IMG/VR virus record: IMGVR_UViG_3300022700_000278
Location: 50,883-114,882 of that record
Direction: 5' to 3' (one strand)
DNA from: a virus
Length of the DNA: 64,000 nucleotides
The translations under genes were made by a program, and so were the position numbers. A model generated the notes under the pieces. It saw only the letters and a list, made by a program, of their open reading frames with translations. It did no database searches and was not told the DNA's origin. Below, one piece after another: positions 32,614-63,939 of the stretch (positions within the stretch are counted from its first letter, which is position 1; the number at the start of each line of letters is the position of its first letter).

Positions 32614-33780
32614 TTATAAGGCATAGCTACGAATAATCTCTGCCACTTCTTTACACATTGATCTCGTCATAGTATTTCCAGAGGGGATACATAGTATCTT
32701 GCGCCATACCGATTCGGTTTTTTCAAGCCTGAATGTCTGACATCTAGAATATGGGACTTGCAAGTGTCCTGGCATCCACAAAGGTCTTGTTTGAACACCT
32801 TCGGCATAAAGTTTTGTCATTAGTTGTTCTCCGCTCATTCCAAACACGTCTTTGTCAATTGTTATGGCAGTAAGCCAAAAGTTGGCCTCTTCTTTGTTTG
32901 GCGGAGAAAAGACTTTGATGCCTGGAACTTCTCTCAATTCTTCATGGTATGTTTTCCACCATAAACGATGGTTGGCAAGAAAAGTGTCCAGGTGTTCCAT
33001 TTGTGAACAAGCAAGGGCTGCATTCATATTGGTCAAGCCCAAATTGTATCCTACATCATTGTGGACATAGCGTACGGTGTCATCCTTTGCTTGTAAAGAT
33101 AAATACCGGGCACGTTTGCCGTATTCTTCATTGTTTGTAATTAGCATGCCTCCGCCTCCAGCAGTCACTATTTTATTAAAACTGAAGGAAAAGATTCCCA
33201 TGTCTCCATGGGTACCTGCATGCTTGCCTTTTCCTGCGCCACTTATACACCATGTTCCCAAAGCTTCTGCTGCGTCTTCTACGATGGTTAAACCAAAGTT
33301 TTTGGCGGTCTTTCGAAGGGCTATAGGAGCGTCAGAAAATGTTCCAAGGATATGAACAGGAAGAATAGCTTTTATGGTTCTTCCAGTAAGTTTATTTTGA
33401 AGTCCTAGAGGAGTCTGAATGCATTCCTCTTCGATAAATTGTTGTGTTTTGCCCCAGTCTAAATTTAGATCAAAGTCTTGGCAATCCATAAAGACGGGAT
33501 GAGCGCCTACGTGTTTGATAGCATTGATTGGAGCGATAAAGGTTAAAGAAGGTATTAAAACTTCGTCTCCCGACCCTACTCCCGCCAATCTAAGAGCCAG
33601 CATGAGTCCAGAAGTGCCTCCATTAACAGCAATAGCGTACTTAGCGCCAGTGTAGGCTTTAACCTGTTGCTCGAGCTTGTCTACGTAGTCTCCTGCATAG
33701 GAAATCCACCCTGTGTCTAGACAGTTCTTTATATACCTCCAGGCGTTTTTGCTAATCTTTGGTTCTGCTAATGGTATCAT
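32614..33780 (-). CDS. LegC-family PLP aminotransferase (nucleotide-sugar 4-aminotransferase)
   Basis: 388 aa, DegT/DnrJ/EryC1 fold. The sequence follows the LegC subgroup: opening I-P-L-A-E-P-x-I-S, then C-L-D-T-G-W-I-S-Y-A-G, D-E-V-L-I-P-S-L-T-F-I-A-P, V-E-D-A-A-E-A-L-G and the PLP-lysine region F-S-F-S-F-N-K-I-V-T-A-G-G-G-G-M. Enzymes of this group transfer an amino group from glutamate to a 4-keto-6-deoxy nucleotide sugar, as in bacillosamine or legionaminic acid routes. AAAGGA lies 9 nt before the ATG. The dehydratase that would make its substrate is not in the window and may be the host's. First in function, last in order, of the glycan cassette. Confidence 0.88.
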   Translation of the reverse strand: MIPLAEPKISKNAWRYIKNCLDTGWISYAGDYVDKLEQQVKAYTGAKYAIAVNGGTSGLMLALRLAGVGSGDEVLIPSLTFIAPINAIKHVGAHPVFMDCQDFDLNLDWGKTQQFIEEECIQTPLGLQNKLTGRTIKAILPVHILGTFSDAPIALRKTAKNFGLTIVEDAAEALGTWCISGAGKGKHAGTHGDMGIFSFSFNKIVTAGGGGMLITNNEEYGKRARYLSLQAKDDTVRYVHNDVGYNLGLTNMNAALACSQMEHLDTFLANHRLWWKTYHEELREVPGIKVFSPPNKEEANFWLTAITIDKDVFGMSGEQLMTKLYAEGVQTRPLWMPGHLQVPYSRCQTFRLEKTESVWRKILCIPSGNTMTRSMCKEVAEIIRSYAL

Positions 33781-33819
33781 CAGTAAAGTCCTTTATTTCT
33801 TTTTCTGAGACGTGATCTA

Positions 33820-34359
33820 TCATAACTTTTTATATGCTTCTTCTGCAAGTCTCAATATCTTATCTTTTGGTCTCTTTTTGATTGGTTTGGCAGGAGATCC
33901 AATATTAATTGTCCATGGTTCTATATCTTTTGTTACAACAGAACCAGAACCAACCACAGCTCCTTCTCCAATAGTTATGTTTGGAAATACGATTGTATTT
34001 GTAGCAAGGAAAGCAAATTTTTTTAAAGTAACAAAAGATCTTGTTACATTTCTTAGTCTGTCAGGCACAGTTGGTCCCATTAGCCCCGTTCCGTCTGTTG
34101 CGTCTATTCCCGTAATTATTCTACTTCCAGCTGCAATGTTTGCAAAATCTTCAACTCTAGTGCGACCTCCTCCGCTTATAGAAACATAAGGCGCTATATG
34201 TACAAACCATCCAATGATAGTGGAGATACCACCCATGATATGAACATATTCGCTAATCATATCATGGCCCTTTAAAACTACTTTTTCTGGTGATATAATT
34301 GTTACTGGCTCAAAAATTCGAACCTCAGGGCCAACTTCTTTAAGTAGTTCTACTTCCAT
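33820..34359 (-). CDS. Left-handed beta-helix acetyltransferase (sugar O/N-acetyltransferase type)
   Basis: 179 aa. Hexapeptide repeats of the LbetaH fold run from about residue 18 to 160 (for example I-G-W-F-V-H-I-A-P-Y-V-S-I-S-G, I-A-A-G-S-R-I-I-T-G, then I-G-E-G-A-V-V-G-S-G-S-V-V-T-K-D-I), ending in the typical W-x-I-N-I-G-S-P-A-K-P-I-K. This places it with WbbJ/maltose-acetyltransferase-like enzymes that use acetyl-CoA. Beside a LegC-type aminotransferase, the natural inference is acetylation of the new 4-amino group, but O-acetylation is equally possible. Overlaps the sulfotransferase upstream by 10 nt. Confidence 0.85.
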   Translation of the reverse strand: MEVELLKEVGPEVRIFEPVTIISPEKVVLKGHDMISEYVHIMGGISTIIGWFVHIAPYVSISGGGRTRVEDFANIAAGSRIITGIDATDGTGLMGPTVPDRLRNVTRSFVTLKKFAFLATNTIVFPNITIGEGAVVGSGSVVTKDIEPWTINIGSPAKPIKKRPKDKILRLAEEAYKKL

Positions 34360-35111
34360 TTATAATCTTTTTCTAAAAACTCATACAATGCTTGATTGTA
34401 ATCTTTGTAGAAGGATTGCAGCATTTTAAATGCTTTTTCGTCTATTGGTTTCTCAGGGCTGCTCTTTCTTATATGGGTAAAATTTTTTGGATAAAATTCT
34501 TTTAGTCCTAGAAATTTTATAACATCACAATATGGTCTTTTGGGAGACTCAAAGAAGTCTTCTGACTTGATAACTAAAATTTGAGAAGAATCAAAAAGTT
34601 CACAGCACAATGGAACTGTTTTGATATAGCATCCTTTATCAATTAAATAGTAGTCGTTTTCGTGGGCGGTATCCAAGTAGTTCAGAAATGACGGATATCG
34701 TGTTTCCCACTTTGGGGCTATTTTCGCAATATGATGAAAATGAGAATAAAGACGATAGACAGGGTCTCTAAGCAAAATAATTATTTTAATATCTGGTAAA
34801 GTTGCTTTGATACGTTGCATTGAGAGGGCTCGATAGAGATATGTAGGAGATGCCTCTCCAGTAATTTGTCCTGGTTCTAAAACGGGGAACCTGTTTCGAT
34901 ACCAATCTAGTCCTTTGGACCAATGGCGATCAAAGAACCTTACTTCTTTTTGCTCAAGAGAAAGCTTTCCACCAGTATAGTCTACTTCACTATTTGGAAG
35001 TTTTCGTGCGGGGCAAATTTTTGGGTGCTTAACTAAATCTTCAAAGAAAGAGGATGTCCCACATTTGGTTTCTCCAACTAAAAGGAAGGAGGGAGTAGAT
35101 GGCTTAGACAT
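34350..35111 (-). CDS. PAPS-dependent sulfotransferase (carbohydrate type)
   Basis: 253 aa. The 5'-phosphosulfate-binding P-loop is F-L-L-V-G-E-T-K-C-G-T-S-S-F near residue 10, with the conserved F-F-D-R-H-W and G-E-A-S-P-T-Y-L-Y motifs following, and the 3'-phosphate-binding motif I-I-I-L-L-R-D-P-V-Y-R-L-Y-S-H-F at about 118-133. This is the architecture of heparan-type sulfotransferases and bacterial/viral relatives that move sulfate from PAPS to a sugar hydroxyl or amine. Overlaps both neighbours by 8-10 nt. No signal peptide, so it should act in the cytoplasm. Confidence 0.88.
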   Translation of the reverse strand: MSKPSTPSFLLVGETKCGTSSFFEDLVKHPKICPARKLPNSEVDYTGGKLSLEQKEVRFFDRHWSKGLDWYRNRFPVLEPGQITGEASPTYLYRALSMQRIKATLPDIKIIILLRDPVYRLYSHFHHIAKIAPKWETRYPSFLNYLDTAHENDYYLIDKGCYIKTVPLCCELFDSSQILVIKSEDFFESPKRPYCDVIKFLGLKEFYPKNFTHIRKSSPEKPIDEKAFKMLQSFYKDYNQALYEFLEKDYKWK

Positions 35112-35952
35112 AAGAAATTGTTTCTAAAAGAAGTTTTTCTTTTGAAATTGATTTTTCGAGTTGAAGTATGGTTATTTGTGATGCATCATAAAATCGTTTT
35201 TTTACTTTTTTAGCAAAAACATCTTTTCTTTCATGAAAAACAACTGTTTTTGTACAACCATCAGAAACAGAGCAGAAAAAAGCTGAATTCGAGGCTAATA
35301 AAAATTCTGCTGCTCGTGTTAATTTCACAGCAGCTCTTCCCGTTGTTTTACCAACAAGATTAAACAACCTTTTTCTTTGATAAGAAAACTTTTCTTCAAA
35401 GAATTTAGGATTTTGAGAATTTCTTATTTTTGCGTGACTTCCTCCTACTATGACGACATTAAGATCCTTTTCTTCTACAACCATGTCTATAAATGGAATA
35501 TAGTTTTCAGGAGAAAAAAATATGCGATTTTTGCCTCCAGCGAAAGGATGAATTACTATATATCTACCTTCCTGCTGAATCCGATCAATTGTTTCCTGCT
35601 CTTTTTTAGAGAGAAAAACATCTATATTTGGTTGCTTTTTTAAGTTGTTTCGTTTTCCAAATTCTTCTAGAGATTTATACTTTTTTGCTTCTTCTTTAAT
35701 GTTTTTGCATTCTTTTATTTTGAGCGGAGATATCCATGGGTGTATATCAATAGAATCAATCCGAGGATCTAATTCAAAAAACCTAGAGGCTTCTTTTTGA
35801 ACTGGATGACAAATTAATTTAATCTTGGCTTCAGGAATTTTTGTTTTCAATTCCTGAAGATAGCCGAAACCAAAGGGGAAGCTGTGTGGAGAAAAATACC
35901 CTAAAAGATGATCTCCCAATCCCCCAGCAGTATGTAAAAAAAAGTTATTCAT
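35104..35952 (-). CDS. GT9-like (heptosyltransferase-type) protein, short form A
   Basis: 282 aa from ATG 35952, chosen because it makes an 8-nt ATGAATAA overlap with the upstream stop; the ATG 33 nt earlier has no ribosome site. N-terminal glycine-rich loop H-T-A-G-G-L-G-D-H-L-L-G-Y, and in the second half Y-I-V-I-H-P-F-A-G-G-K and V-V-I-V-G-G-S resemble the GT-B donor-binding half of ADP-heptose:LPS heptosyltransferases. The usual late motif (T-P-D-T-S-x-x-H-L-A-G) is weak (L-L-A-S-N-S-A-F-F-C). Paralogous to 36412-37299. Activity uncertain. Confidence 0.7.
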   Translation of the reverse strand: MNNFFLHTAGGLGDHLLGYFSPHSFPFGFGYLQELKTKIPEAKIKLICHPVQKEASRFFELDPRIDSIDIHPWISPLKIKECKNIKEEAKKYKSLEEFGKRNNLKKQPNIDVFLSKKEQETIDRIQQEGRYIVIHPFAGGKNRIFFSPENYIPFIDMVVEEKDLNVVIVGGSHAKIRNSQNPKFFEEKFSYQRKRLFNLVGKTTGRAAVKLTRAAEFLLASNSAFFCSVSDGCTKTVVFHERKDVFAKKVKKRFYDASQITILQLEKSISKEKLLLETISYV

Positions 35953-36157
35953 TTTTTTCAAAAAATTCATCGATAGAAGAAACAATCTTTACTCGTTGGG
36001 CATTTAAAGAAACAACTTGTTCACATAGTTCTTCAATTTCTTCGTCAGATCTTTCTTTGTCCTTTTCTTTTCCCCGTATGTTTTCTTCTATGTGCCAAAT
36101 TTTTAAATGTACAACAGCAAGCTTGTCAATCATTTCTCCAATAGAATAGGCTAGCAT
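35945..36157 (-). CDS. Small helical protein, tandem paralogue 1 (70 aa)
   Basis: Starts at ATG 36157, one base after the upstream TAA and 5 nt after AAGGAGG; the longer open frame has no ribosome site. Conserved pattern with the upstream neighbour: G-E-x-I-D-x-L near the start, I-W-H about 12 residues later and L-N-A-Q-R near the end. The shape recalls the short DUF4254-type proteins that accompany glycosyltransferases, but I hold that comparison loosely. It sits between the two GT9-like genes, so an accessory role in glycan synthesis is a fair guess. Confidence 0.65.
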   Translation of the reverse strand: MLAYSIGEMIDKLAVVHLKIWHIEENIRGKEKDKERSDEEIEELCEQVVSLNAQRVKIVSSIDEFFEKNE

Positions 36158-36158
36158 G

Positions 36159-36410
36159 TTAGCCTCCTTCACAAAAATTAATTTTTGTTTCGTTTGCGCC
36201 AGAATTAAACTTTTTGTCAATTTCCCATCTGACAGCCGAACGTTGTGCGTTTAGTTCTCTAATGTTCAGAAAAATTTCTACTTTTTCTTTTGTTCCTAAT
36301 CCTTTGTCTTTTTTTACTTCACCAGAAAGAGTTTTGATCTTTGTTGCTTTGTGCCAAATTTGATTGTTTATGTTAATAAGGGAATCTATTACTTCTCCTG
36401 TTGTCTTCAT
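36159..36410 (-). CDS. Small helical protein, tandem paralogue 2 (83 aa)
   Basis: ATG with AAGGAG 8 nt upstream. Shares with its downstream neighbour T/I-G-E-x-I-D-x-L, x-I-W-H and L-N-A-Q-R in the same order and spacing apart from a longer Lys/Gly-rich middle. This is a clear tandem duplication of a two-helix protein inside the glycan cassette. The stop is one base before the next ATG. No enzymatic motif. Confidence 0.7.
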   Translation of the reverse strand: MKTTGEVIDSLININNQIWHKATKIKTLSGEVKKDKGLGTKEKVEIFLNIRELNAQRSAVRWEIDKKFNSGANETKINFCEGG

Positions 36411-36411
36411 A

Positions 36412-37299
36412 TTATAACTCCTTGATTGTTCTAAAAACTTCTTTTGTTACTTCTTCAGGCGGGCGAAGATTTTTTTCGTTGCCAAGGCTAATAATTTTAT
36501 GTTTTTTTCCTTCCCACCGTTGTCCTTGGTTGAATCTTTTTCTTAAGTTTTTTTCAGGCTTCTCGGAAACGAGAAGAATTGTTAGTTTGTTATGAAGCCA
36601 AGAAGCGACAGAATAAGCAGACCAGCTACCAATAAAGTATTCTTGGTGTTTTGCAAGATGGTAGTATAGCCTAGGGTTCCCTTTGTTAACTAAATTAAAC
36701 AAGCCTGGTCGCTCATAATCAAACCTTTCTTTCATTATGAGAACTTTTTTTTCATTTTGGGTTAATCGTTTATGATCGTTCCCTATAACAACTGTATTGA
36801 CTTTTTTGTCGTCAACCAACCAGTCTATCAAAGGAATATATTCTTTTTCTGTCCCAGAACACCTTCGTCTCAGCCCCGCAAAGGGGTGAATTAATACAAA
36901 CGGACCTGCCCCTTGTATTTTTTTTAAGACTTTTCTGTCCTGTTCGTTAAGAAAAATTTTTGGACGTTTAAAAGTCAGTGAAGATAACAATCTTTTCTGA
37001 GTTGAAAGTCGTTTTGCCTGGTTACAATGAGCTTTTTCAAATGATTCTCTATTTTTTGGAGAAACTGCTCTAAAATTTTCTGCTTTTGTTATATATGGAT
37101 TATACTTAATAAGCTCTAGTACGTTTGAGTTATGTGAGGTGCCTATAACATTTATCTTTACTTGTGGATATCTTTTTTTTAAACTTTCAATATAGCCCCA
37201 ACCGGCTTTACCTTTATGGTAAGTCCAGAAAGCATCTCCTAGCCCTCCCCCAAGGGAAAGAAAAACACTTTCTGGTAATTTTTGCTTTCTTACCACCAT
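36412..37299 (-). CDS. GT9-like (heptosyltransferase-type) protein, short form B
   Basis: 295 aa, overlapping the upstream sulfotransferase by 10 nt. Same layout as 35104-35952: an early S-L-G-G-G-L-G-D-A-F-W-T-Y loop, G-W-G-Y-I-E-S-L-K-K-R-Y-P, then F-V-L-I-H-P-F-A-G-L-R-R and V-N-T-V-V-I-G-N-D. The late region H-Q-E-Y-F-I-G-S-W-S-A-Y-S-V-A-S replaces the canonical GT9 motif. The two are tandem paralogues separated by the pair of tiny helical genes. Probably a GT-B transferase with changed specificity, or a non-catalytic partner. Confidence 0.7.
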   Translation of the reverse strand: MVVRKQKLPESVFLSLGGGLGDAFWTYHKGKAGWGYIESLKKRYPQVKINVIGTSHNSNVLELIKYNPYITKAENFRAVSPKNRESFEKAHCNQAKRLSTQKRLLSSLTFKRPKIFLNEQDRKVLKKIQGAGPFVLIHPFAGLRRRCSGTEKEYIPLIDWLVDDKKVNTVVIGNDHKRLTQNEKKVLIMKERFDYERPGLFNLVNKGNPRLYYHLAKHQEYFIGSWSAYSVASWLHNKLTILLVSEKPEKNLRKRFNQGQRWEGKKHKIISLGNEKNLRPPEEVTKEVFRTIKEL

Positions 37300-38138
37300 A
37301 AAAGATTTTTATACCCAACTTGTTTCATCAGCTTCTTGAGCTTGTCTTGTCTGCACAGTTCGTCAAACTCAAGCGACATAAAAGATCTTGTGTGTTCTAT
37401 GTCACCAGCTAAATATTTCCTCTTGAAGTTTTCCCACTGAGGCTTGGGAGAAGAGTTTCTTTTCTTTTCTATTAGCTGATAGGTCCTATTTTGTGGCTCC
37501 CATTCCAAAGTCTTTTTCTTCGCTTTTTCATTAAAGTTCAAACCGCAAAAGTCATACAGGTGTTTGATTAATTTTATTCGACCGTTTTTTGTTTTAGACT
37601 GTTCTGCATCTATTGGCAATAGAAAAGCATGTTTCTTTGGCACAGAAAGCATTTCTGTATATTTTTGTATCCACGTTTTTAATCTTTTTTGTCTAGAAAC
37701 ATTATCCATTTCATTTGGGTTGTTATGCTCTTCGTCTTCTCTCCATAACTTGGAATGAAGAGATAATAGTGGATCTCTTATCGGAATAACAATTTTTACT
37801 TCTGGCTTTTTCTCAATCAAACTTTTGATAAACCAAGAACTTGGTTTGTGATGATGCTCGTGAGCAATAACAATCTTTTTCCCTGCTAGCTGTTCTTCTT
37901 TACAAGCCGACAAAACACCTTCGCTAAACCATTCGGTACAAATTTTTTCCGACGGCTTGGTAAAGTCTGAAAGCTCTATGGGCTTGGTTTTTACATATCG
38001 CCGATGATTTAGTTTCTTATGTTTTTCCCACAAGCTTCCTATTCTAAAAGCTTCTTCTGTGTGAAACCCAGCAGCAAGCATAGAACTAGCAAAGAAAGTA
38101 CCAGTGTGCTGAATGCTATAAACAAAAACCTTTTTCAT
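37290..38138 (-). CDS. Second sulfotransferase-like protein
   Basis: 282 aa. P-loop Y-S-I-Q-H-T-G-T-F-F-A-S-S-M at the N-terminus and V-K-I-V-I-P-I-R-D-P-L-L-S-L-H-S-K-L at about residues 118-135 correspond to the 5'-PSB and 3'-PB motifs of PAPS-binding sulfotransferases. It is only distantly similar to the sulfotransferase at 34350-35111, so it probably has a different acceptor. ATGA overlap with the double GT9 gene upstream indicates coupling. It could also be a related P-loop kinase; the I-R-D-P motif favours sulfotransferase. Confidence 0.75.
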   Translation of the reverse strand: MKKVFVYSIQHTGTFFASSMLAAGFHTEEAFRIGSLWEKHKKLNHRRYVKTKPIELSDFTKPSEKICTEWFSEGVLSACKEEQLAGKKIVIAHEHHHKPSSWFIKSLIEKKPEVKIVIPIRDPLLSLHSKLWREDEEHNNPNEMDNVSRQKRLKTWIQKYTEMLSVPKKHAFLLPIDAEQSKTKNGRIKLIKHLYDFCGLNFNEKAKKKTLEWEPQNRTYQLIEKKRNSSPKPQWENFKRKYLAGDIEHTRSFMSLEFDELCRQDKLKKLMKQVGYKNLLWW

Positions 38139-40084
38139 TTGATTTTCTCTAGTAAAGCTTCATAGACATCTTTAACTGCAATGTTTTCCATACATTTAGA
38201 GTGTCCTTTTGCTGAGCCAGTCTTTTTGCATGGCATATTCTGGTTTCTCCAACAAGGAACGCAGTCCATTTTGCTACTCACCACAAGACAATTCTTGTAG
38301 TGTTTGCAGCGTGCTCGAGGATCAATCGGACCAAATAAAGCTATAGTAGGGAGGTCAGCACTTCCGGCAAGATGCAAGAAAGAAGTGTCTGGAGTAAGCA
38401 TTATATCTGCGCTTAGAGCTATCGCAGCAGCTTTCCGGAAGGGAAACCCGCCAGCATCTACAGTGTTTGGATATAAAAACTCTCTAGAATGATCAAGAAT
38501 AATTACTTGAAACTTATCAACTAACAAAGGAATTAAATCATTATATTTTTCAATTGGCCAGTTTCGGTATTCTTCTGCACAACGTAAAGCAACAGCCAGT
38601 CTCGGCTTCTCTGTTTCTGGAAGAAAAGTTTTTGCCCAAGAAAGTTCTTCTTCTGTCGGCCAGTAAGTACTAGACTTTTTCTTTATAATCTTAGAAACCC
38701 CTAGTGCCTCTGCAAAGACCTCTACTCTAGTTTTGTCTACTGGTTTTCTACTACGAACCTTGTTAGCTTCGTAGTGAGCGCATGGAGTAGAGATGTCGTA
38801 CACGATAGAATATCTGTTGTTTTTAATTTCCTTATCAGCGTCTAGCAGCTTATCTATCGTTGGACTATTTTCTGCTGCTGGCCAATACTTTTTTGGAAGC
38901 GCGAAGTAAACTTTCTTTGTAGGATATTTATCTTTTAATGCCTCTATGGCAGTCATGCTTTGTGTAATATCTCCAAATCCTCCGAAGTGTCTTTTCACTA
39001 GTACAATATTGTCAGGCTTGAAGCCTTTTCTAGAGTTTACTGTTATCACTTTCTGTACCTTGGTTTTTTCTGCAAGCTTTGTTTTAATTGCATCATGTAC
39101 CATTTCAGGATGCAGTTCTTTCATACAGGTAATTTTTCCACCACACGTTGGGGTATACCAACATCCTTCACAAGGAAGACCTGCTGTAATAGTAGTGCAG
39201 TTTGCATAGTGGTTTGTTCTAGACTCAGGAGGCACAGATCCAAACAGTGACACTGTTTTCTTTTGTAGCGCGCCAGCCAAATGTAACAATGAACTATCAG
39301 GAGTGACTACAACGTCACACTGTTCTAATATAGCCCCAGTGTATCGTAAGTTATAGTTACAAATAAATGTTTGGCGAGGGTTAAAGTGGTTCTTCTTCTC
39401 CCAATGGAACAATGCTACCCTAACCTTAGGGTCTTGCGTAAGAAGCTCTACAAGTCGCTTGTTGTGTTCCAGAGGCCAAGTACGTCTATTGTCATTGCTT
39501 TTTACCTGAAGTCCAACTAAAGTAACGTCCTTGCGGTTGTGGGGGAGCGCTTTTTGCTTTATTAGTTCCTCTGCCCATTCTTTTTCGTCATCAGTAACAA
39601 CATATGTAGGAACAGGGTCAGAAGAAACATCTACCCCAAGTTGTTCCGCAAACATATCTATTCGATTAGGTGGGACCTGACCTTTTTTTTCTCGTGCCAA
39701 ACCAGTCGCTGTTATATCTGTAAATAAATCATAGTCTCTTGCTGTTGCTGTTTTATAGCTAATTAGTTCGTCTACAAAAGGATTGTTTCGAATCACGTCG
39801 CCTAAAGCTCCGTTAGAATAAACCAAATCTGTAGCATATATTAAGTGACAGTTGGGAAGTAGTCTTTTGATGTGCTTGAGCATTGGTGTGCTCATTATCA
39901 CATCGCCAATACCTCCTAGTCTTCTGTAGACACAAACCTTTGGCTTCTTCCCTCGAAGCAGCCCATCTAGTCTGCTGAAAACTTTTGGCTCGGCACGAGC
40001 CTTAGAATGTACGTTTAAAACACGTCCTTTTGATCTCTGCTCTCCATCTGGAACGAGAATGCCTTTTTTAAGCCTGGCTACCAT
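38135..40084 (-). CDS. Double-headed GT9 glycosyltransferase (two fused heptosyltransferase-type modules)
   Basis: 649 aa made of two complete GT-B GT9 modules. Module 1 (about 48-350) has R-R-L-G-G-I-G-D-V-I-M-S-T-P and V-T-P-D-S-S-L-L-H-L-A-G then V-S-L-F-G; module 2 (about 365-649) has K-R-H-F-G-G-F-G-D-I-T-Q-S and L-T-P-D-T-S-F-L-H-L-A-G then I-A-L-F-G-P. Both end in a Cys-rich tail (C-E-G-C-W ... C-G-G-K-I-T-C and C-V-P-C-W ... C-K-K). Normal GT9 enzymes are about 320-350 aa, so this is a tandem fusion that may add two sugars. Upstream of it the cassette begins. Confidence 0.9.
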   Translation of the reverse strand: MVARLKKGILVPDGEQRSKGRVLNVHSKARAEPKVFSRLDGLLRGKKPKVCVYRRLGGIGDVIMSTPMLKHIKRLLPNCHLIYATDLVYSNGALGDVIRNNPFVDELISYKTATARDYDLFTDITATGLAREKKGQVPPNRIDMFAEQLGVDVSSDPVPTYVVTDDEKEWAEELIKQKALPHNRKDVTLVGLQVKSNDNRRTWPLEHNKRLVELLTQDPKVRVALFHWEKKNHFNPRQTFICNYNLRYTGAILEQCDVVVTPDSSLLHLAGALQKKTVSLFGSVPPESRTNHYANCTTITAGLPCEGCWYTPTCGGKITCMKELHPEMVHDAIKTKLAEKTKVQKVITVNSRKGFKPDNIVLVKRHFGGFGDITQSMTAIEALKDKYPTKKVYFALPKKYWPAAENSPTIDKLLDADKEIKNNRYSIVYDISTPCAHYEANKVRSRKPVDKTRVEVFAEALGVSKIIKKKSSTYWPTEEELSWAKTFLPETEKPRLAVALRCAEEYRNWPIEKYNDLIPLLVDKFQVIILDHSREFLYPNTVDAGGFPFRKAAAIALSADIMLTPDTSFLHLAGSADLPTIALFGPIDPRARCKHYKNCLVVSSKMDCVPCWRNQNMPCKKTGSAKGHSKCMENIAVKDVYEALLEKIK

Positions 40085-53315: not shown

Positions 53316-53522
53316 CTACTGCTTTCTATGAAACGTCTTGGTAAAAGGCTCTTTGTTTGGGCATGTTATTTTAATAATAATAGTGCTTCGTGAACTGTCT
53401 TGCTCTGTTACTTTACATTTAGGATATTCTGCTTCTACTCTACGCTGAGCAACAGAGGTGCAGCATACAAATATTACAATCGTAGCCAGAAAAAGCAGTG
53501 TTTTTATACTTCTAAAACCCAT
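53316..53522 (-). CDS. Small exported or lipoprotein-like protein, 68 aa
   Basis: Starts inside the end of the upstream ClpP-like gene (19-nt overlap). Residues 1-22 form a signal-type segment: basic F-R-S-I-K, hydrophobic L-L-F-L-A-T-I-V-I-F-V, then C-C-T-S, which resembles a lipobox. The mature part has two Cys and would be periplasmic or outer-leaflet. Candidate for superinfection exclusion, spanin-like or host-envelope role; nothing in sequence decides. Confidence 0.6.
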   Translation of the reverse strand: MGFRSIKTLLFLATIVIFVCCTSVAQRRVEAEYPKCKVTEQDSSRSTIIIKITCPNKEPFTKTFHRKQ

Positions 53523-54109
53523 TGTCTTGTTTCCTTAATTAATGGAAAACCAATATGGTCTGCAAATCCATATTTTATTGCTTCTTTTGCATTTAGGTAA
53601 AGTTCTCCATTTGAATCTTTTAGCAAGTTGTTAAATTGTTTCTGTGTCAAGTTGGACTTTTTTATTACTCTTTTTATCCACTCTTCATTCATTCTAGAAA
53701 CTGTATTTAAGTAACGCTTCATATCTTCGCTGTCCATAGATATTGCTGTAACCTGAACATTATGAAACATCAATCTAGAAGCAGGAGCCATCCATCTTTC
53801 TTCTCCTAAAGAAAATAGTATTGCTCCTGCAGATAACGACTTCCCAGCATTAACTGTTACTACAGGTTTAGTAGAGCATTCAATTATTTCTGCCATACTA
53901 AATAAAGCGTCAAGATCTCCTCCGTTGGAGTCAACATATACAACAATTTTTTCAATCTTATCGTCGCTTAGATAACAAGAAAAATCATAAAAGAATTCTT
54001 TTGCTGTATCTTCATCAAAGTTATTAACCCAAATTACAGGTAGTTCGTTTTCGTCTTGCATAGCGAGAGGCACAGAAGCTTCTCCTATGACAGCAGAGTG
54101 TTTCGTCAT
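53504..54109 (-). CDS. ClpP-family serine protease, paralogue A
   Basis: 201 aa. V-D-S-N-G-G-D near residue 60 begins the fold; the nucleophile region is G-K-S-L-S-A-G-A with Ser93, the catalytic His is in L-M-F-H-N-V (His116), and an Asp is available in L-K-D-S-N-G-E. The order and spacing fit ClpP peptidases (about 195-207 aa). It is one base-coupled (TAATG) to a second ClpP-like gene. Role: regulated degradation, prohead-type processing or host proteome control; no ClpX partner is encoded here, so a host unfoldase may be used. Confidence 0.85.
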   Translation of the reverse strand: MTKHSAVIGEASVPLAMQDENELPVIWVNNFDEDTAKEFFYDFSCYLSDDKIEKIVVYVDSNGGDLDALFSMAEIIECSTKPVVTVNAGKSLSAGAILFSLGEERWMAPASRLMFHNVQVTAISMDSEDMKRYLNTVSRMNEEWIKRVIKKSNLTQKQFNNLLKDSNGELYLNAKEAIKYGFADHIGFPLIKETRQWVLEV

Positions 54110-54705
54110 TAAACAGCCTCACATTCCCAGACTTCAGATCTACTTATTTTCGGCACTCCAATATGATCTATAAAACCATATTCTTTTGCTTTCTCTGCTC
54201 CAAAAAACCATTCTCCTTCGTGTTCTTTTATTTTTAATATAATTTCTTTTGTCGACAACTGTGCTTTTTTGGCAATCAGAGAAAAAATTCTATTATTTCG
54301 TTCTTCTAAAGCATCTAATTCTCTTTTCAATGTTTTTGTATTGCCGGTGATATCGCTTGATGCGTGATGTATTTGCATCATACAATTTCTACTCATCCAT
54401 CTTGTGCCACTTGGACCAAGTGCTAAAAAATATGCTGCAGCAGAACAAACTAAGCCAAGTCCTACTATATGTATTTCTTTTGATGAATTATTTATTGTGT
54501 CTACCATAGCTAACAAAGGATCAACTTCTCCTCCATATGAAAAAACATTGATGAATATGGAGGTCAGGTTTTGATCTGCTTCTAGCTCTTGCATTCTTTT
54601 AATGAAAACGTCTGCCGCCTCAAAGGTGAAGTCACATATGTTTATTATTGGAGCTTCATCTTTCTCCACTTCTAGTGGAACGCGCTTGAATTCCCATGTG
54701 TCCAT
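54109..54705 (-). CDS. ClpP-family serine protease, paralogue B
   Basis: 198 aa, ATG with AGGAAG upstream. F-S-Y-G-G-E replaces the usual S-x-G-G, the nucleophile region is L-V-C-S-A-A-A-Y (Ser88) and the His is in M-Q-I-H-H-A-S (His113). The pair A/B are clearly diverged from each other, as in organisms with mixed ClpP1P2 rings. A hetero-oligomeric 14-mer is therefore plausible. Unlike typical prohead proteases, both lie in the replication block. Confidence 0.83.
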   Translation of the reverse strand: MDTWEFKRVPLEVEKDEAPIINICDFTFEAADVFIKRMQELEADQNLTSIFINVFSYGGEVDPLLAMVDTINNSSKEIHIVGLGLVCSAAAYFLALGPSGTRWMSRNCMMQIHHASSDITGNTKTLKRELDALEERNNRIFSLIAKKAQLSTKEIILKIKEHEGEWFFGAEKAKEYGFIDHIGVPKISRSEVWECEAV

Positions 54706-62083: not shown

Positions 62084-62599
62084 TTATTCCTCTATCACCA
62101 AATGTAAATCTCCCTTGGTAATTTCTATGCGCCCACCGCCAAGCAAGTCCCTTACTTTCCTCAAATAATCTATTGTATCTTCTGGAATTATAATGTCAGC
62201 CTTTTTGCTATTTCCTATGGAGGTATTTTCTCGTACAACAACAGCTTCTATATTTTCCTCTGGAACTTCTTCCTTGGTAGAAGCTTTGTTTATTAGTTCT
62301 GCAACATTTTTTAGTGTCTCAAAAGCTTTTTTTCTCGCCGCTATATTTTCACTTTTTGCATCAAGATCTTTTGTAGGAGGCAATTTAAAAATATTTTCTC
62401 CAGATAGGTACCTTCTTGCTTTGCCAAAAGCAAGACCGTATCCCGTCTCATGTTTTATTTCTCCGTATGAAGCTACATCTATTATATTTATGGAAAGACT
62501 CTGATTCTTCAAGAGCTTCTGTAAAGCAAGAGTCATCTTTTTAATAAGTTTTTTTGATTCTTTGTCTATTTTCCATTTATAAAAAGTAACTTTTATCAT
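62084..62599 (-). CDS. Unknown protein, 171 aa
   Basis: TAATG coupling with AGGAAG upstream. Basic N-terminal half, a Lys/Glu-rich helix in the middle (about residues 95-120) and a C-terminal segment (I-I-P-E-D-T-I-D-Y-L-R-K-V-R-D-L-L-G-G-G-R-I-E-I-T) with alternating character. No known family. Likely an early accessory protein. Confidence 0.6.
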   Translation of the reverse strand: MIKVTFYKWKIDKESKKLIKKMTLALQKLLKNQSLSINIIDVASYGEIKHETGYGLAFGKARRYLSGENIFKLPPTKDLDAKSENIAARKKAFETLKNVAELINKASTKEEVPEENIEAVVVRENTSIGNSKKADIIIPEDTIDYLRKVRDLLGGGRIEITKGDLHLVIEE

Positions 62600-62937
62600 T
62601 AGCTTCCTGCTCTTGGTTGGCTTGGTAACGAGTCATCATACCCTGGTTTCTTTGGAAGGCTTTTAGGTCTAAAATCTCTTATCCATCGTGTTTCACCCAC
62701 CACCCAAATTGGACGAATTTCTACACCACCATCACTAAGTTCTTTAACAGCCTCTGCGTGTTGTATTATATGACATAAATCAGCTTGTTCTTCATAATAC
62801 TGATCTGAGTAGTACTGTTCCTCTTGATAACTATAATAGTCGTCCATGCACAGATCACAAGGGTAAGATCCTTGATGGTCAGGGTGTACTTCACAACATC
62901 CAGGTCTCAGGTGGCTTCCATAAATATCAAATGCCAT
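62599..62937 (-). CDS. Unknown protein with Cys/Tyr-rich N-terminus, 112 aa
   Basis: ATG with GAGGAAAT upstream. G-C-C-E-V-H-P, then C-D-L-C-M-D-D suggest a zinc site formed by Cys/His within the first 32 residues. Next comes an acidic, Tyr/Gln/Ser-rich stretch (about residues 33-55), then a small beta domain ending in a Pro/Lys-rich tail. Coupled on both sides by 1-nt overlaps. Confidence 0.6.
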   Translation of the reverse strand: MAFDIYGSHLRPGCCEVHPDHQGSYPCDLCMDDYYSYQEEQYYSDQYYEEQADLCHIIQHAEAVKELSDGGVEIRPIWVVGETRWIRDFRPKSLPKKPGYDDSLPSQPRAGS

Positions 62938-63179: not shown

Positions 63180-63539
63180 CTACTCCTTGACAAGCTCAAT
63201 GCTAAACTCTTCTACTTTTCCAGGCCACTCGTGATTGTCATTCATAAAAACAATCTCTACGAACTCTCTAAAAGTAGCGGCACCATATTCTGACTCTCCA
63301 ATGGAATTATAAATCTCTCGAAGAATCTTTTCATTTGAAAAATTAGAATTAGCATGCTTCTTTACATACTCTTTCATAGCTTGATGCTCAGGCTCCTTAT
63401 TTAAATCTTTGTCCATCCATTCGCTCCAGTTTAGGTACATGTCGAGCATGTAGGACTGTGACACCTTCTCTTCTACTATTCTTGTAATTTTATATAACTT
63501 TTCTTCTTTTTTTTCTTCTGACTTAAGATTAATTTTCAT
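63180..63539 (-). CDS. Unknown charged protein, 119 aa (start corrected)
   Basis: The longest open frame extends to 63932 and runs through the hexamer repeat as Ala-Thr-Ala-Thr, but ATG 63539 has AGGAG 8 nt upstream (in the AAGAGGAGCAAG stretch) and begins M-K-I-N-L-K, so this is the true start. The product is Lys/Glu-rich at the N-terminus, then a compact alpha/beta domain with D-M-Y-L-N-W-S-E-W-M. No family recognised. Ends at TAG 63180-63182. Confidence 0.7.
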   Translation of the reverse strand: MKINLKSEEKKEEKLYKITRIVEEKVSQSYMLDMYLNWSEWMDKDLNKEPEHQAMKEYVKKHANSNFSNEKILREIYNSIGESEYGAATFREFVEIVFMNDNHEWPGKVEEFSIELVKE

Positions 63540-63603
63540 TTTCTTGCTCCTCTTGTTGGAATTGTTTTCGTTGTCAATCGTCTTCTCGTTCAAAGTCTCT
63601 ACC

Positions 63604-63939
63604 TCAGGCGCACTCAAAACCATATCCATCTCCGGATCCCTCTCCGTAGAGGGAGCCGTAGCCGTAGCCGTCGCCGGAGCCGTAGCCGGAGCCGGAGCCG
63701 TCGCCGTCGCCGTAGCCGTAGCCGAAGCTGAAGCCGAAGCCGGAGCCGTAGCCGTCGCCGTAGCCGTCGCCGTTGCCGTAGCCGTAGCCGTAGCCGTAGC
63801 CGTCGCCGTAGCCGTCGCCGTAGCCGTCGCCGTAGCCGTCGCTGTCGCCGTCGCTGTCGCCGGAGCCGTCGCCGTAGCCGTAGCCGTAGCCGAAGCCGGA
63901 GCCGTAGCCGAAGTCGTTATTGTTCTCTTCATATAGCAT
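63604..63939 (-). CDS. Gly-Tyr/Gly-Asp repeat protein, 111 aa
   Basis: ATG 63939 overlaps the upstream TAA (TAATG). After M-L-Y-E-E-N-N-N-D-F the protein is G-x-G-x dipeptides with x = Tyr, Asp, Ser or Phe for about 90 residues, then S-L-Y-G-E-G-S-G-D-G-Y-G-F-E-C-A. In the repeat core every codon ends in C; near the end (about 63607-63650) the codons change to GGA, GGT, GAT, TAT and TTT, yet the G-x-G pattern continues, which argues that this frame is selected. The sequence resembles low-complexity phase-separating or elastic proteins. Function unknown. Confidence 0.7.
   Translation of the reverse strand: MLYEENNNDFGYGSGFGYGYGYGDGSGDSDGDSDGYGDGYGDGYGDGYGYGYGYGNGDGYGDGYGSGFGFSFGYGYGDGDGSGSGYGSGDGYGYGSLYGEGSGDGYGFECA
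63652..63912. repeat. Hexanucleotide tandem repeat (GCCGTA/GCCGTC family)
   Basis: About 260 nt of imperfect 6-nt repeats, GCCGTA, GCCGTC, GCCGGA, GCCGAA and variants on the + strand (GGCTAC/GGCGAC on the coding strand). It is open in several frames: Gly-Tyr/Gly-Asp (the chosen gene), Ala-Thr and, on the + strand, Val-Ala. Its G+C content is far above the surroundings. Copy number is likely to vary by slippage between isolates. Confidence 0.9.

Follow-up and report, generated by a model that had tools for sequence, protein, structure and literature searches.

A Gly-X repeat gene near the end of a phage contig: coding frame, array turnover and possible role

The viral contig is linear and 114,882 bases long; its final 64 kb, the whole stretch of DNA analysed here and referred to as the window, carries close to its end a long hexamer repeat that is open in more than one reading frame. 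This raises the questions which of these frames encodes a protein, and what a protein made of such a repeat could do for a phage. Tandem Repeats Finder reported a single long array at 63654-63910 (period 6, 42.8 copies, score 325), which is the top-scoring tandem repeat of the window by a wide margin. The original prediction described the repeat as open in several frames, and indeed three open frames were found over the array: a Gly-Tyr frame, an Ala-Thr frame (63180-63932, 250 aa) and an antisense Ala-Val frame. The features of the locus are the following:

63180..63539, minus strand: downstream gene, 119 aa, with its own AGGAG-ATG
63180..63932, minus strand: Ala-Thr ORF, 250 aa, read as a shadow frame fused to the downstream gene and not as a gene
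63604..63939, minus strand: (Gly-X)n protein gene, 111 aa, X = Y/D/S/F/N (from ORF, translation, composition and edge codon wear)
63616..63651, minus strand: worn 3' array edge, Gly-X largely kept, genome-type codons GGA, TAT, TTT, GAT
63652..63909, minus strand: homogeneous array core, 43 hexamers GGC-NNC, codon usage unlike other genes of the genome
63939..63995, minus strand: 18-codon upstream ORF MAYESSKDDYGYDDGEAD, its stop overlapping the array gene ATG by 1 base

Since the window runs to the end of the contig, only 61 bases separate the array gene from that end.

Coding frame of the array

According to the ORF listing and translation, the array gene starts with ATG and stops with TGA, and GAGG is found 7 nt ahead of the ATG. 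The encoded protein of 111 aa reads MLYEENNNDFGYGSGFGYGYG...GDGYGFECA. The start of the 18-codon ORF in front of it resembles the start of the array gene (M-x-Y-E....D-Y/F-G-Y; likeness read from the sequence). Within the core, the X codons are TAC for Tyr, GAC for Asp, TCC for Ser, TTC for Phe and AAC for Asn; all 86 codon third positions are C, and 3 of the 43 hexamers start with AGC rather than GGC. In the other genes of this phage Gly is written GGC in 20% and GGA in 55% of cases, Tyr is TAC in 28% and TAT in 72%, and Phe is TTT in 76%.

At the worn edge the codons are GGA GAG GGA TCC GGA GAT GGA TAT GGT TTT. Third positions have shifted off C in 9 of 10 cases and Gly first or second positions in 0 of 10, a contrast with a Fisher p = 1.2e-4 for sites that were picked post hoc. 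Read in the Ala-Thr frame the array edge gives TERDPEMDMVLSAP, and the Gly-X pattern is retained at the edge only in the Gly-Tyr frame. The edge codons thus bear out the earlier reading that codons diversify here while a G-x-G-x pattern stays in one frame only. Judged by its codons, this is what the unhomogenised end of a tandem array under protein-level selection would look like. The separate start that had been assigned to the downstream gene was also recovered, as AGGAG, a 7-nt spacer and ATG at 63539. No Shine-Dalgarno sequence was found ahead of the Ala-Thr start, and the Ala-Thr ORF reaches into the downstream gene because the repeat has no stop in that frame.

Relatives of the array provide a second line of evidence. 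A total of 80 phage loci were retrieved via a conserved C-terminal domain, LTGSCxxGR, and not via the repeat, and 67 of these were examined. In 66 of them a Gly-X array stands ahead of the domain and shares its reading frame; the sample is partly dependent on the repeat since the domain was first met in repeat-found proteins. Shifted by one frame, the arrays of these relatives give Ala-Met, Ala-Leu or Ala-Pro, in a register that does not match that of the domain. In a reverse control with (Ala-Thr)5 and free codons, nearly all long arrays had a G before each GC. Almost all (Ala-Thr)5 matches therefore appear to be Gly-X arrays viewed one frame off; the remaining ones were short single-hexamer runs, with one longer exception (L313).

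Edge wear, separate starts and the 66 relatives agree with the original prediction that the Gly-Tyr frame codes and that the longest ORF is wrong; the Gly-X frame is the coding frame. Relatives with only the Ala-Thr frame intact had been named as the contrary outcome, and the 66 relatives are in frame only as Gly-X. That the 250-aa Ala-Thr ORF would be a real gene is barely credible: it is the longest ORF, and changes at the first position of X are silent in it, but the array edge breaks Ala-Thr while mainly keeping Gly-X, relatives have other residues there, out of frame with a conserved domain, the G before GC in long Ala-Thr-pattern arrays amounts to GGC in the Gly frame, and the start has no ribosome-binding site whereas the downstream part has its own. 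Annotation by longest ORF would accordingly choose the wrong frame for Gly-X array genes.

Genes for ribonucleotide reductase, RecA and DNA polymerase III, as named from the sequence, lie on the strand of the array gene within 14 kb. No annealing-protein gene was seen in the window before the contig end. For the downstream 119-aa protein relatives were not found, only a weak match to an unnamed PHROG (E 0.0008).

Gly-X arrays in other phages

The original prediction considered such proteins rare in phages. A search with the fully codon-degenerate pattern GYGDGYGDGYG yielded at least 120 stretches in viral contigs, versus 58 in 257 Gb of bacterial and archaeal genomes (one genome per species), some of the 58 being other glycine-rich proteins, e.g. 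secreted Gly-Tyr-rich ones. In view of these at least 120 stretches and of the varied ORFs holding arrays, the alleged rarity was wrong, and (Gly-X)n low-complexity proteins are a widespread class among tailed phages. The array ORFs are commonly 50-200 aa long. A motif search showed that 29 of 140 carry one of three recurrent domains and 111 none of the three; DUF6948 and DUF7666 are further domains joined to arrays. Gly-X arrays thus occur alone or fused to several different domains. The GACxxGV domain was aligned. In Riemerella phage CRP5 (L271/L273, OQ268095) the array-following type of C-terminal domain is joined to a BspA-type LRR_5 repeat in the product of gene CRP5_000001, which is annotated as 'ribonuclease inhibitor'.

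The class was defined by at least about 12 strict Gly-X units, X being mainly Y/D/S/N, in a phage ORF. The window gene has this number of units, and it combines the uniform silent sites (86/86 third positions C) with the mixed X that mark the class. The window ORF is without the LTGSCxxGR C-terminal domain and ends directly after the array. Searches of phages with the window genes by tblastn and blastn, in which the array is masked as low complexity, returned no relatives. Neither did locus searches with the 119-aa neighbour, an 813-aa helicase-like protein and the ribonucleotide reductase. The codon pattern of the N-terminus of the array gene gave nine matches, none of them followed by an array.

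Several named families come close to these proteins. The PHROGs families phrog_18306, phrog_20392 and phrog_11232, which are without given function, contain Gly-X-like stretches, and the relatives studied match these profiles over the array; the window protein itself matches no PHROG. A protein of Siphoviridae sp. ct6h44 named 'Lamprin' (A0A8S5SZK3, BFVD) shares the array-following C-terminal domain (E 1.1e-20, 46% identity), which the window protein lacks, and its name looks like an automatic label derived from the lamprey matrix protein. RTX nonapeptide repeats (GGxGxDxUx, period nine) were rejected as an identity: the array has a period of two residues, no GG and no hydrophobic position, and no Pfam match to RTX was found in the window protein. 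A match to TrAA12 (PF22807) was likewise rejected, since it scored 22.9 bits against a curated cut-off of 30.9 and covered only the low-complexity part 385-432 of 463; serine-rich family matches were dismissed as low-complexity. No papers on these Gly-X proteins were found in the literature searched, the coverage of which mostly leaves out subscription journals.

The 121 nearest neighbours of arrays in other phages include, as raw counts without a matched control, RecT four times, YqaJ/RecE-type proteins twice and DUF6948 seven times. ERF, Sak, Sak4, thymidylate synthase and integrase are also among them, as are one terminase and one lysozyme. By their annotated likeness, these neighbours seem to be pointing to early recombination/replication regions and not to virion genes.

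Turnover of array units

In ordinary coding evolution, silent sites are more variable than replacement sites. The arrays display the opposite pattern. Per-array departure from the own majority base was counted for 156 distinct arrays with 4871 units, a count in which the definition of an array leaves no variation at the first two positions of Gly. Non-majority fractions were 0.028 at the third position of Gly and 0.027 at that of X, compared to 0.37 and 0.23 at the first and second positions of X. Silent third positions within arrays are thus ~97% uniform, while the X replacement positions vary freely.

The original prediction proposed a comparison of repeat number in relatives, and in other phages unit counts differ. 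Loci with 100% identical flanks have 18 versus 46, 24 versus 33 and 21 versus 48 units; their arrays show gaps of up to 28 units and differ by whole blocks. In loci with 92-99.5% identical flanks the arrays are unalignable. The locus pairs L200/L201, L236/L237, L015/L028, L252/L264 and L256/L263, all with identical or near-identical flanks, range from gain or loss of blocks to full replacement of the array. Overall, arrays range from ~12 to 59 units, with a near-random word order and a weak period of two X residues. Individual arrays have codon habits of their own: Ser is nearly always TCA in L250, and GGCGAC or GGCTAC alternates with GGAAGT or GGATGG in L256. Such habits suggest that the units are fixed copied words, and argue against mutation targeted to single positions.

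These comparisons show that an array consists of a small set of fixed hexamer words copied over and over, and that across relatives the gain, loss and reshuffling of words far outpace change in the flanks. Within each array the silent positions are homogenised, and X is kept as a mix of Tyr, Asp and Ser, plus Asn or Phe. No relatives of the phage in the window were found in the collections searched, so its own turnover is extrapolated from what other phages show. The relatives are mostly metagenome assemblies, probably from short reads, in which repeat lengths can be wrong, and the differences in length between loci may partly result from short-read repeat assembly.

A target of a diversity-generating retroelement was considered and rejected. 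Variation by such elements is confined to template adenines and changes AAY codons into NNY. In the arrays of the relatives His and Cys are almost absent, the TCY:AGY ratio of Ser codons is ~580:25, and L250 uses TCA and L256 AGT for Ser; adenine mutagenesis misfits these data, and copying of units fits them.

The combination of uniform silent sites and mixed X was also studied by simulation. With mutation, slippage and purifying selection, the third position of Gly was at least as variable as X under the settings tried. Very frequent slippage alone turned X uniform as well. The observed pattern was reproduced once slippage was at least 30 times as frequent as mutation and X diversity was held above a minimum, the internal repeats being somewhat longer than in real arrays. 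In the model, fast turnover together with selection keeping X mixed would thus suffice for the pattern, which is sufficiency and not proof. A common phage protein class bears an odd evolutionary signature, with silent sites fixed, replacement sites mixed and arrays rewritten between identical flanks. This signature provides a handle on the question whether phages use simple repeats for disordered scaffolds or for fast-changing binders.

Composition and possible role

The window protein has a net charge of -19, 27 aromatic residues and 23 [GS][YF][GS] motifs. On average, X is aromatic in 40%, acidic in 31%, S/N/T in 26% and basic in 1% of cases. The AlphaFold2 model of the window protein is of low confidence (pLDDT 34); for a relative with 43 aligned sequences the values were ~30-40 over the array and ~90 over the C-terminal domain. 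A structure search with the latter domain retrieved only phage proteins and no solved relative. In low-complexity sequences, low pLDDT values are a weak sign of disorder.

Repetition of [G/S]Y[G/S] motifs is characteristic of FUS-type low-complexity domains, which the window protein resembles by its 23 motifs. The likeness is one of composition, and unlike FUS-type domains the window protein is strongly acidic, strictly Gly-X and phage-encoded. Silk fibroin-like crystalline repeats are (Gly-X)n with X mainly Ala or Ser. They share strict Gly alternation with the array, but the array has Tyr, Asp and Ser at X, no secretion signal, and relatives in a probable early-region context. It had been suggested that the protein is like those that form condensates or elastic fibres. 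The elastic fibres found no support, as there is no virion or secretion context and the relatives seem to lie in early recombination/replication regions. Condensate formation is compatible with the composition and with the low-confidence, unstructured models, while the strong acidity argues against easy self-association.

The best explanation, to which roughly even odds are given, is that the window protein would be a disordered multivalent scaffold for weak binding, from a widespread phage (Gly-X)n class. An acidic, tyrosine-rich, probably disordered sticker-and-spacer chain would be made early in infection and would work through numerous weak interactions with itself or with a partner. Partners could be nucleic-acid-handling proteins, because relatives often adjoin phage recombination/replication genes. 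The average composition of X, and not its order, would be under selection, and in other phages the same chain may tether one of several unrelated folded domains.

Clearly less probable, though still the strongest competitor, is a structured repeat, silk-like or a solenoid of beta type, in which Gly lines one face and the X residues of the opposite face form a variable surface that binds in the manner of Tyr/Ser/Asp/Asn-rich loops. The strict Gly-X alternation with X restricted to Y/S/D/N, the weak period of two X residues and an X that stays mixed though silent sites are uniform all fit this proposal. Furthermore, BspA-type LRR_5 (PF13306) takes the position of the array before the same C-terminal domain in CRP5. 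LRR_5 is a folded leucine-rich solenoid without sequence likeness to the array; its presence in the place of the array suits a binding or tethering role, and could mean that the array is a structured binding module as well. However, AlphaFold2 yields no structure for the array, no solved relative was found beyond weak composition matches, and lengths of ~12 to 59 units with near-random word order suit a chain better than a fold.

An unlikely further possibility is that hexamer turnover continually rewrites the Tyr/Asp/Ser chain, which selection would keep diverse because it binds many partners, e.g. changing host or rival-phage proteins. The arrays would then be multispecific binders in a widespread hypervariable phage class, and a means of generating diversity without reverse transcriptase.

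A little less probable again is that the array is kept partly as DNA, its GGC hexamers serving as homology patches for domain swapping and the protein being a tolerated spacer. In 137 of the 156 arrays, including arrays of AT-rich phages, GGC predominates among the Gly codons. L051, L144, L161 and others, from phages of 31-38% GC, use GGC for nearly every array Gly, and in such phages GGC makes up ~16% of Gly codons outside arrays. This dominance would favour a DNA role; as a guess, it might also reflect avoidance of Shine-Dalgarno-like GGAG and GGTGAT within the array. Fusion of the same array type to several unrelated domains and the annealing-protein genes near arrays point in the same direction, as do a few loci that are alike on one side of the array (L004/L030 85.5% downstream, L232/L249 78%). 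A test for domain swaps by one-sided similarity gave few clear cases, most being too weak to use, and at ~67% identity one-sided likeness is perhaps a lost signal on the other side. Moreover, an X that is mixed and stays within Y/D/S/N requires protein-level selection, and Gly-X largely persists at the worn array edge of the window.

Rather improbable is a functionless neutral microsatellite that is open by chance. The homogeneous core with codons unlike the genome, as after recent expansion, and the nearby contig end would agree with it, but the same Gly-X composition recurs in many unrelated phages, domains are fused in frame, and simulated neutral slippage failed to keep X mixed with uniform silent sites.

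Apart from the array, the window holds other features on the minus strand. A neighbouring protein of 112 aa (62599-62937) has a Tyr/Glu/Asp-rich stretch, DDYYSYQEEQYYSDQYYEEQ, and clustered Cys, and matched no Pfam or PHROG family. As read from translations, two adjoining genes at 53504-54705 are ClpP-type-protease-like and apparent paralogues (201 and 198 aa), and aminotransferase-, acetyltransferase-, sulfotransferase- and glycosyltransferase-like genes at 32614-40084 form an apparent sugar-modifying cluster.
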